A DNA stretch of 64,000 nucleotides from Oceanimonas smirnovii ATCC BAA-899 (GTDB taxonomy: Bacteria > Pseudomonadota > Gammaproteobacteria > Enterobacterales > Aeromonadaceae): the NCBI RefSeq assembly GCF_000381965.1, contig NZ_KB908463.1, positions 1 to 64,000 of the forward strand, given 5' to 3'. The translations under genes were made by a program, and so were the position numbers. The notes below the pieces were generated by a model, which worked only from the letters and a program-made list of their open reading frames with translations, had not been told where the DNA came from and did no database searches. Of this stretch, positions 17,508 through 20,517 are shown in pieces; the stretch's first letter is position 1; each line of letters opens with the position of its first letter.

Positions 17508-18380
17508 ATGAGTATTTCTGTACCCGTACGTCTGATGGGGCTGGCTGCCCTGTGTCTGAGTGGTCTGAGTCAGGCTGAGACCTTTGTGTTTACTGCCATT
17601 CCGGATCAGGATGAGCGCCGTCTGACCGAGCGTTTTGGCAAAATTGCCGACTATCTTTCCGAGCAGCTGAACGTAGACGTGAAATATGTTCCGGTAAAAA
17701 GTTATCCGGCCGCGGTCAGCGCTTTTCGTAACGATCAGGTTCAGCTGGCCTGGTTTGGCGGCCTGACCGGCGTGCAGGCCCGGGAACTGGTGCCCGGCAG
17801 TGAAGCGATTGCACAAGGTGCGGAAGACACTGCTTTTGTCAGCTATCTGATTGCTCATGAAAGCACGGGCCTGGCTGCAAGTGAGCAGTTACCTGCTGAA
17901 CTGGCCGGCAAGCGCTTTACCTTTGGCGACAAGGGCTCTACCTCCGGCCGCCTGATGCCCGAGTTCTTTTTGCGTGAGCACTTTGAGCAGGCTCCGGAAA
18001 CCTTGTTCTCCCGGGTGGGCTTCTCCGGTGATCACAACCGCACCATCAGTCTGGTACAGTCCGGTGCCTATGAAGTGGGTGCCGTGAACTACGCAGTATG
18101 GGATGCCGAGCTGGAAAAGGGCAATATTGATGAAAGTAAGGTTAAAGTGATCTGGACCAGCCCGGAGTATCCCGATTATCAGTGGAGTATTCGTGGTGAT
18201 GTAAATGCCCGCTTTGGTGACGGCTTTAAAGAAAAAGTGAAGCAGGCACTGCTGGAGATGAAAGATCCCGAGCTGCTGGCTGCCTTTCCCCGCTCCGGTT
18301 TTGTGAATGCGACCAACGACGATTACGCGCCCATTCGTGATACTGCCGTGGCCATTGGCATTATGGATCCTGAACAATAA
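17508..18380 (+). CDS. PhnD-like ABC substrate-binding protein, putative selenate type
   Basis: A 290-aa periplasmic binding protein with a signal peptide ending SQAE near residue 24. The segments TAIPDQDERRLTERFGKIADYLSEQL and QLAWFGGLTGVQARELVPGSEAIAQG match the PhnD-like subfamily annotated as putative selenate-binding (as I recall, TIGR04553). The substrate has not been proved for this group; selenate, phosphite or phosphonate are possible. The gene has a good AGGA site and a TATAAT at 17471-17476, and its stop overlaps the ATPase start (TAATG). Confidence 0.78.
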   Translation: MSISVPVRLMGLAALCLSGLSQAETFVFTAIPDQDERRLTERFGKIADYLSEQLNVDVKYVPVKSYPAAVSAFRNDQVQLAWFGGLTGVQARELVPGSEAIAQGAEDTAFVSYLIAHESTGLAASEQLPAELAGKRFTFGDKGSTSGRLMPEFFLREHFEQAPETLFSRVGFSGDHNRTISLVQSGAYEVGAVNYAVWDAELEKGNIDESKVKVIWTSPEYPDYQWSIRGDVNARFGDGFKEKVKQALLEMKDPELLAAFPRSGFVNATNDDYAPIRDTAVAIGIMDPEQ

Positions 18381-19051
18381 TGAGCGAGCCTGCCAGCCTG
18401 TTTCAGTTCCATGATGCCAGCCTTGGCTATGCCGGGCAGCCGGTATTGGAAGCGCTGAATCTGAATGTAAGGCAGGGAGACAAAATCGCCCTGCTGGGTG
18501 AGTCGGGCACCGGTAAAAGCACGCTACTGCGCCGGCTGCGTGAACTGCGGCCGGATGAAGTTGCCTGGTGTCCGCAGCAGCCCGGCCTGGTGCCTGTGCT
18601 GAGTACCTTTCACAACATTTATATGGGGCGACTGGCAGGCAATCCGTTCTGGTATAACCTGGCCAATCTGGTGAAGCCATTGGCCGGGCCCAAAAAAGAA
18701 ATTACCGGGCTGGCCAGCCGGCTGGGTCTTTCCGGTCAGCTATGGCAACCGGCAGGAGCGTTATCCGGTGGTCAGCAAAGCCGGGTCAGTCTGGGCCGGG
18801 CCCTGTATCAGCAAAAGCCGGTGTTCATTGGTGATGAGCCGGTGTCGGCGCTGGATGAGCGTCAGGCTGCCGACCTGCTCACATTGGTGTGCGAACGCCA
18901 CCAGACGGTGGTACTGGCGCTGCACAACGTGGAGCAGGCACTTACTCACTGCACTCGCATTGTGGGACTGCGCCGGGGAAGGCTGGTGCTGGATGCGCCC
19001 AGCCGTGATCTGACGCCTGCCCAATTACGGGCTTTATATACTTCCTCATGA
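18380..19051 (+). CDS. PhnC-like ABC transporter ATPase
   Basis: A 223-aa ATPase. Walker A is GESGTGKST near 39-47, the signature is LSGGQQSRVSLGRAL near 132-147, Walker B is VFIGDEP, and the switch His is in LALHNVEQAL. It powers the importer formed with the flanking binding protein and permease. It overlaps both neighbours by 1-4 nt, so the three genes form one tightly coupled unit. Confidence 0.9.
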   Translation: MSEPASLFQFHDASLGYAGQPVLEALNLNVRQGDKIALLGESGTGKSTLLRRLRELRPDEVAWCPQQPGLVPVLSTFHNIYMGRLAGNPFWYNLANLVKPLAGPKKEITGLASRLGLSGQLWQPAGALSGGQQSRVSLGRALYQQKPVFIGDEPVSALDERQAADLLTLVCERHQTVVLALHNVEQALTHCTRIVGLRRGRLVLDAPSRDLTPAQLRALYTSS

Positions 19052-20517
19052 CAACTTCTGCTTCAATGGGGCGAACCAGCCTGTTGTTTGTGGCGCTGGC
19101 GCTGCTGTGTCTGCCCTGGGCGGATTTTTCCATTACTGCTGTCGATCCCTGGTTTGAGCTGAGCCGTCTTGGTGCCGGCTTATTGCTACCTGCCTGGCCA
19201 GATACAGAAGTACTGCTGGCCGCATTGGCCAATACGCTTTCCTTTGCTCTGCAGGGGGTGGCGCTGGGGGCTGTGTTGGGGCTGGGCCTCGCCTGCGGCT
19301 ATCGATCGGCGGGGGTGCGTCGGCTGGCAGCAGGACTGCGGGCAGTGCACGAGCTGTTCTGGGCTTTGCTGTTTATGCAACTGCTGGGGCTGTCGGCGCT
19401 GGCGGGTGTACTGGCCATCGCACTGCCCTACGCGGGCACCTTTGCCAAGATTTACGGTGAGCTGTTTGAAGAAGCAGATCCGGCCCCCGAGCAGGCACTG
19501 GCGGCGGGCTTTGGCCGCTTGACCCGGCTTGTCTATCTGCAATTACCGCTGTGCTGGCGGCAGATGGCGACTTACACCGGATACCGGCTGGAGTGTGGTA
19601 TTCGCAGCTCCGCGGTGCTGGGTTTCATTGGTCTGCCCACCCTGGGCTACCATCTTGAATCTTTGTTGCGGCAGGGATATTACGATGAAGCCGCCGCTTT
19701 TTTTTATGCGCTGGTGCTGATTATCGCTACCCTGCGCTGGTGGTTGCGAAGCCGGCTGGTGCCGCTTTATCTGCTGGCTGCCATTATCTGGCTGCCGCCG
19801 GTGGCCAGCCTGAACTGGTCGCTGATGGCCCGTTTTTTTACCGAAGACATTATTCCGGCTCCGCTGAGGGCAGGGGACTGGGCCGGGCTCTGGCCCTGGT
19901 GGGCGCAGTTATGGCAGCAGCAGGCAGGGCCCGGACTTGCCAACACCCTGGTGCTGGCACTGGTGTCACTGGTACTGACCGGTATGCTGGCACTGGTATG
20001 GTTTCCGGCCATTTCCCGGCGTTTTGGCAATGCCGTCAGCCGGCACGCCAGTCATGGCTGGCTGGTGCTGATGCGCTCACTGCCAGAGTATTTACTGGCC
20101 TTTGTAGGCATGTTGCTGCTGGGGCCGGGCATGCTGCCGGCCATGCTGGCGCTGGGGCTGCATAACGGGGCCATAATCGCTCACCTGCTCGGGCATCATC
20201 TCAACACCCTGAGCCTGCGGGAAGATGCACCGGGCGGTCTCAATCTGTATTTTTTTGAGGTGCTGCCCCGGCTGTATCGTGCCTTTATGGCCTACAGTCT
20301 GTACCGTTTTGAGAACCTGATCCGCGAAACGGCGATTCTGGGCATGCTGGGTATTCCCACGCTGGGCTTTTTTATTGATTCGGCCTTCAGTGAATTTCGT
20401 TTTGACCGGGCCATGGCGCTGCTGCTGGTGTGCGCCGGACTGAACATACTGGTCGATGTGGCAGCCCGCCGGCTGCGGCAGCGGCTGCACCTGGGCAACC
20501 GCGCCGAGGTGCTTTAA
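19048..20517 (+). CDS. PhnE-like ABC permease with two fused permease domains
   Basis: A 489-aa inner-membrane protein about twice the normal length for a PhnE permease. Two permease units are visible in one chain. Each has an EAA-type loop: AAGFGRLTRLVYLQLPLCWRQ (about 151-171) and LYFFEVLPRLYRAFMAYSLYR (about 395-415). Each loop is followed by a similar helix, GIRSSAVLGFIGLPTLGYHLE and LIRETAILGMLGIPTLGFFID. The protein would replace the homodimeric membrane core of a PhnCDE-type importer. It starts by ATGA overlap with the ATPase and is convergent with the SDR gene, overlapping it by 4 nt. Confidence 0.85.
   Translation: MTTSASMGRTSLLFVALALLCLPWADFSITAVDPWFELSRLGAGLLLPAWPDTEVLLAALANTLSFALQGVALGAVLGLGLACGYRSAGVRRLAAGLRAVHELFWALLFMQLLGLSALAGVLAIALPYAGTFAKIYGELFEEADPAPEQALAAGFGRLTRLVYLQLPLCWRQMATYTGYRLECGIRSSAVLGFIGLPTLGYHLESLLRQGYYDEAAAFFYALVLIIATLRWWLRSRLVPLYLLAAIIWLPPVASLNWSLMARFFTEDIIPAPLRAGDWAGLWPWWAQLWQQQAGPGLANTLVLALVSLVLTGMLALVWFPAISRRFGNAVSRHASHGWLVLMRSLPEYLLAFVGMLLLGPGMLPAMLALGLHNGAIIAHLLGHHLNTLSLREDAPGGLNLYFFEVLPRLYRAFMAYSLYRFENLIRETAILGMLGIPTLGFFIDSAFSEFRFDRAMALLLVCAGLNILVDVAARRLRQRLHLGNRAEVL

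Follow-up and report, generated by a model that had tools for sequence, protein, structure and literature searches.

A PhnDCE-like importer with a fused permease in Oceanimonas smirnovii that probably takes up a selenium oxyanion

The stretch of DNA analyzed here (the window) comprises positions 1 to 64,000 of the forward strand of contig NZ_KB908463.1 of Oceanimonas smirnovii ATCC BAA-899 (RefSeq assembly GCF_000381965.1) and is the start of contig C10 in our numbering of this 3.28-Mb genome of 26 contigs (G000). It contains three plus-strand open reading frames (ORFs) for a binding protein, an ATPase, and a permease (Table 1), i.e., the PhnDCE-like three-gene importer already recognized in a preliminary description of the sequence. 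The ORFs overlap by 1 base (binding protein and ATPase) and 4 bases (ATPase and permease) and therefore look like one translationally coupled operon. The locus shares superfamily and gene set with the phosphonate importer PhnCDE of Escherichia coli, but its proteins fail the NCBIfam equivalog cut-offs for PhnD (138.6 bits; cut-off, 261.1), PhnC (138.1 bits, the best NCBIfam match of the ATPase; cut-off, 266.1), and PhnE (TIGR01097, 196.3 bits; cut-off, 216.7). E. coli PhnD also has a larger pocket, which accommodates 2-aminoethylphosphonate (PMC10284923).

Table 1. Features of the importer locus, with positions in the window
Feature	Position	Strand	Evidence
Periplasmic substrate-binding protein, TIGR04553 family, 290 aa	17508-18380	+	TIGR04553, 385.2 bits
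Probable Sec signal peptide, residues 1-23	17508-17576	+	By-eye reading of the sequence
Tyr66, equivalent to PhnD1 Tyr44 (ligand H-bond)	17703-17705	+	58/58 family rows; invariant in alignment A4
Ser144-Thr145-Ser146, equivalent to PhnD1 STS oxyanion loop Ser124-Thr125-Ser126	17937-17945	+	58/58 family rows at each position
His176, equivalent to PhnD1 His156	18033-18035	+	58/58 family rows
Asp223-Tyr224, equivalent to PhnD1 H-bond acceptor Asp203 and capping Tyr204	18174-18179	+	Asp 51/58, Asn 7/58; Tyr 57/58
ABC ATPase, PhnC-like, 223 aa	18380-19051	+	Walker A (residue 40), LSGGQ (128), Walker B (148), H-loop (181)
Permease, 489 aa, two homologous halves in one chain	19048-20517	+	TIGR01097 match in two stretches
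Permease N half, PhnE1-like, residues 1-250	19048-19797	+	Split PhnE1 genes fit N-half profile better
Motif GLPTLGYHLE, residues 195-204	19630-19659	+	
Permease C half, PhnE2-like, residues 251-489	19798-20517	+	Split PhnE2 genes fit C-half profile better
Motif GIPTLGFFID, residues 435-444	20350-20379	+	

The binding protein scores well above the cut-off of 250 bits of TIGR04553 ("putative selenate ABC transporter substrate-binding protein"), which bears out its earlier placement in a subgroup proposed for selenate. TIGR04553 is a hypothetical equivalog of NCBIfam whose name is a prediction; the suspicion of a role in selenium metabolism is thus not new, since this name shows that it had been raised before. 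The AlphaFold model of the protein (predicted local distance difference test [pLDDT], 89.3) has its best Protein Data Bank matches in 7S6G, 5LQ8, and 5LQ5, and among solved structures, the PhnD1 proteins from Synechococcus MITS9220 (7S6G) and Prochlorococcus MIT9301 (5LQ5 and 5LQ8) are nearest in both sequence and fold. Identity with the PhnD1 proteins of Prochlorococcus and Synechococcus amounts to 38 to 44%, and fragments of the crystallized PhnD1 proteins score 328 bits (7S6G) and 293 bits (5LQ5) against TIGR04553, i.e., above its cut-off. PtxB of Pseudomonas stutzeri stays below it (163 bits). The phosphite importer PtxABC (PtxB structures 5O2J, 5LV1, and 5JVB) shares its fold and part of its pocket with the window protein, but P. 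stutzeri PtxB carries Gln at the position of the acceptor Asp or Asn of TIGR04553, and the two do not group together in the tree. In a quick phylogeny of 71 rows with long outgroup branches, the window protein and PhnD1 fall into one 45-row clade without PtxB (Shimodaira-Hasegawa-like approximate likelihood ratio test, 99). A second proteobacterial clade of 13 rows joins via a fork shared with a single outgroup row on a very long branch, which leaves the monophyly of the whole TIGR04553 family unsupported.

All ligand contacts of PhnD1 (Tyr44, Ser124-Thr125-Ser126, His156, Asp203, and Tyr204; roles according to PMC10284923) are identical in the window protein and almost invariant in the family (Table 1). 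Among 13 outgroup rows, the position of Asp203 is never Asp, and that of Tyr204 is Tyr in four. The picocyanobacterial PhnDCE locus matches that of the window in these direct pocket contacts, in gene order, and in its fused permease; it differs in having been described as phosphite binding and probably phosphate importing (PMC10284923). In another genome of the same genus, the binding protein gene (G013:C36:10193-10977; loci L027 and L304) is split into two frames with a TGA codon next to a fused permease of normal length, reflecting either a recent pseudogene or an error in the draft sequence.

The earlier claim of two permease units with paired motifs in the 489-aa chain is borne out by the two separate stretches of the TIGR01097 match and by a half-versus-half profile alignment over 223 columns (probability, 99.9; E value, 9.6e-35; 24% identity), a similarity much greater than chance would give. 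A Pfam scan of the permease yielded no family. Its AlphaFold model (pLDDT, 80.8; predicted template modeling score, 0.80) gave no Foldseek match at an E value of ≤0.001, the best hits being weak ones to single MetI-type permeases (about 209 columns; E value, 1.3e-3). The preliminary description had set the fusion against the homodimer of standard phosphonate importers. The two units stand, but neither the peculiarity of the locus nor a doubled homodimer does. Our locus set comprised 120 loci (80 from a named-genome scan and 40 fetched), 117 of which have a binding protein of at least 200 bits; one gene is counted twice among these, as L157 and L314. At 81 of these 117 loci, in cyanobacteria as well as gamma- and other Pseudomonadota, the permease is a single chain of 485 to 620 aa, so that the fused permease is the commonest form in the family and not peculiar to this genome. 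It is encoded by two genes at nine loci (in two of these only one gene passed our filters) and interrupted by a contig end at two; the filters found neither a fused nor a split permease at the remaining 25. With profiles built from the two halves of 82 fused permeases, the first gene of the split loci scored 226 to 244 bits against the N half versus 138 to 148 bits against the C half (8/8), and the second gene scored 177 to 186 bits against the C half versus 152 to 174 bits against the N half (8/8). Since the halves match two separate genes elsewhere, they are old, distinct permease types, and the window permease is a PhnE1-PhnE2 heterodimer fused into one chain; a recent tandem duplication is ruled out by the same correspondence.

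The distribution of the family relates it to selenium. The window genome has selD and the tRNA selenouridine synthase gene selU. Genomes with a TIGR04553 protein over the cut-off are called carriers in the following. Among 61 relatives, 26 are carriers, all of which have selU and 25 of which have selD (the exception, G049, is an 85% complete genome); selU and selD were found in only 12 and 15, respectively, of the 35 noncarriers. Within the genus of the window genome, G020 lacks the importer together with selD and selU. The co-occurrence check that the preliminary description had named gave a comparable outcome at larger scale: selU and selD are each present in 20 of the 21 carriers among 249 Pseudomonadota, compared with 35 (selU) and 45 (selD) of the 228 noncarriers, and selU is present in 81/81 carriers among 194 genomes of the cyanobacterial class compared with 28/113 noncarriers. 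The carriers counted span two phyla and eight families of Pseudomonadota. None of the 12 Pseudomonadota with selD but without selU has the importer. In the 40 cyanobacterial carriers belonging to the 80 loci of the named-genome scan, selU exceeded the cut-off in 37 and selD in 38, and one further selU was cut by a contig end. As a control, the C-P lyase gene phnJ occurs in 34/249 Pseudomonadota, namely in 1/21 carriers and 33/228 noncarriers; the importer family shows no link to C-P lyase. PhnJ also had no match in the whole window genome, in a search that covered C-P lyase and not other phosphonatases. Among the 40 carriers of the named-genome scan, a metagenome-assembled genome labeled Propionibacteriales (G340, locus L197) contains a cyanobacterial-type importer locus and neither selU nor selD over the cut-off; its importer contig is possibly misbinned.

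Physical linkage is evidence of a separate kind from such counts. In 7 of the 20 other carriers among the Pseudomonadota, selD lies within 10 kb of the binding protein gene (G126, G229, G194, G111, G257, G262, and G077; in G111 and G262 the latter is divergent from selD-selU), whereas about 0.2 would be expected by chance according to a rough Poisson estimate that assumes a 4.5-Mb genome and two targets and does not include senB. The senB gene (TIGR04348) exceeds its cut-off in 8/249 Pseudomonadota, five of which are carriers; in these five, no more than 8 kb separates senB from the binding protein gene, and selD is likewise within 10 kb in each. Linkage within 10 kb was seen in 2/25 other relatives (G050, selD; G056, selU). 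In the cyanobacteria G423 and G481, selU is found at a distance of at most 10 kb from the binding protein gene (2/81 in a count that scored selU alone), and the fetched stretches hold selD too; at 5/80 cyanobacterial loci, selD and/or selU lies within the examined stretch. The gene order in G050 is senA (opposite strand), senB, selD, egtD, binding protein, ATPase, PhnE1, PhnE2, and that in G257 is senA, selD, binding protein, ATPase, PhnE1, PhnE2, egtD, with senB on the opposite strand. EgtD is over the cut-off in both, SenB in G257 and not in G050, and SenA in neither. The importers of G050 and G257 sit inside a selenoneine-type gene cluster; genes of this kind make selenoneine from selenophosphate (PMC9814287; PMC10903977). 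Selenoneine as the selenium use of the window genome was set aside, as no SenB exceeds the cut-off in G000.

The family occurs almost exclusively in genomes with selU, often neighbors selD, selU, or senB in other genomes, and shows no association with C-P lyase; the locus therefore probably encodes a type I ABC importer that takes up a selenium oxyanion, with selenite likelier than selenate. The substrate, left open in the preliminary description, is in this respect now strongly supported by genomics as a form of selenium, while the exact ion is less settled by gene content. We infer the identity of the ligand, its reduction, and the supply of selenium to SelD, as well as the direction and energetics of transport, which are taken from the family. 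The binding protein would catch the anion in the periplasm with its oxyanion loop and pocket residues (Tyr66, Ser144-Thr145-Ser146, His176, and Asp223), the Tyr224 cap leaving hardly any space for a fourth substituent. The single-chain PhnE1-PhnE2 permease, placed on an ATPase that presumably works as a homodimer, would then pass the anion into the cytoplasm. There it would be reduced to selenide, SelD would turn the selenide into selenophosphate, and the latter would feed SelU in the window genome. Phosphite and selenite both have three oxygens and a small fourth position (a hydrogen or a lone pair). We lean toward selenite by chemical reasoning, because the measured members of the family prefer phosphite to phosphate and phosphite resembles selenite.

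Selenate, the substrate in the NCBIfam name, is the alternative that survives best, but it seems unlikely. The genomic evidence fits it equally well, as genes cannot separate it from selenite. Selenate shares its tetrahedral shape with phosphate and with the far more abundant sulfate, which argues against it. A further objection is that the characterized members prefer phosphite, which has no fourth oxygen, over phosphate, and that the fourth ligand position of PhnD1 is closed by a tyrosine (PMC10284923).

An importer of phosphite, or of phosphite and methylphosphonate, as the closest crystallized relatives have been described, is improbable, even though the direct pocket contacts are those of PhnD1. 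The CHARACTERISED relatives, i.e., the PhnD1 proteins, bind phosphite with dissociation constants (Kd) of 0.05 to 4.3 µM (own and cited values; Table 1 of PMC10284923). Their Kd values for methylphosphonate are 17 to 109 µM, with no binding detected for the protein of strain CC9311; tight binding of an ordinary phosphonate, named as the refuting observation in the preliminary description, is not seen in these characterized members, whose affinity for methylphosphonate is low. Neither phosphite nor methylphosphonate supported growth of Synechococcus WH8102 and MITS9220, and the phosphite affinity is regarded as fortuitous by the authors (PMC10284923). Moreover, the family does not track C-P lyase and adjoins selD, selU, and senB. 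The in vivo function of picocyanobacterial PhnD is called unknown in PMC5700983.

A constitutive medium-affinity phosphate importer, as proposed for picocyanobacterial PhnDCE by Shah et al. in 2023, has a slighter probability still. It agrees with the phosphate in the PhnD1 crystal and with Kd values of 7 to 182 µM for phosphate (PMC10284923). The same paper reports the PhnD1 gene from each of the 97 Prochlorococcus and Synechococcus genomes in Cyanorak and cites studies without significant induction by phosphorus starvation. However, the affinity for phosphate is roughly tenfold or more below that for phosphite, and the proposal leaves the selU of all cyanobacterial carriers and the linkage to sel and sen genes unexplained. 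Equally improbable is the uptake of a small organoselenium molecule, or of another trace oxyanion by a system that travels with selenium genes. The substrate is deduced from genes, and two genomes place the importer in selenoneine-type clusters, but the pocket is small and closed with conserved oxyanion contacts (PMC10284923), and most carriers have no linked organoselenium gene (senB exceeds the cut-off in 5/21 carriers among the Pseudomonadota). A phosphonate importer was set aside, given the unmet PhnD, PhnC, and PhnE cut-offs and the missing link to C-P lyase.

Several observations weigh against the uptake of selenium. In the window genome, the importer genes are distant from selD-selU, a pair that adjoins on another contig (G000:C2:161822-162739 and 162882-163856) and represents the only selD and selU over the cut-offs; the earlier statement that no selenium gene lies near the importer in the window is accordingly correct. 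Three genomes of the same genus (G011, G012, and G017) keep selD and selU without the importer, and so do 28/109 cyanobacteria and 35/55 Pseudomonadota with selU. These numerous selU genomes without the importer rule it out as a requirement for using selenium. One family member (L110, G199:C1:32001-32792) occurs in a genome without selD and selU; it has Asn-Thr at the pocket pair versus the usual Asp or Asn and capping Tyr and may have changed its substrate. Our counts and Fisher tests treat genomes as independent and are uncorrected for shared ancestry. Recombinant Synechococcus PhnD1 copurified with phosphate, and four PhnD1 proteins were stabilized in the published screen solely in cocktails with phosphorus sources (PMC10284923). 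In the literature searched, no measurement of selenium binding or transport was found for any member of the family, and the open-access literature yielded no ligand measurement under the name TIGR04553.

Whether the whole family, including PhnDCE of Prochlorococcus and Synechococcus, is a dedicated high-affinity selenite importer is about an even call. If so, the nanomolar to micromolar affinity of PhnD1 for phosphite would be mimicry, with the hydrogen of phosphite in the place of the lone pair of selenite, and the tyrosine cap would act against phosphate and sulfate. This would resolve a stated paradox, namely the retention in picocyanobacteria of an importer that binds phosphite even though the cells, where tested, cannot use phosphite. 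The family would also represent a specific high-affinity selenium transport system of prokaryotes, none of which is known according to reviews up to 2026. The candidate is widespread and also occurs in abundant photosynthetic organisms of the ocean, whose importer has been investigated in the context of phosphorus transport, and its binding protein has already been crystallized and assayed, with phosphorus ligands. A text search did not find "selen" in the main text of PMC10284923 and PMC5700983, and neither an equation of picocyanobacterial PhnD1 with TIGR04553 nor a selenium role for PhnDCE was found in the open-access literature; one Pseudomonas putida protein carries the label "phosphonate/selenate" in a published text.

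With respect to neighboring genes, the importer of the window is preceded by an azlC-azlD pair and followed by a convergent gene for a FabG/PhaB-like reductase. At picocyanobacterial importer loci (L157, L161, L177, L213, L216, and L314), a small esterase-like gene recurs, which is possibly the tesA reported beside phnDCE in PMC10284923. At the very start of the window, a 5S rRNA gene (positions 7 to 121) is followed by a tRNA-Asp gene (positions 156 to 232), and together they are probably the end of an rRNA operon.

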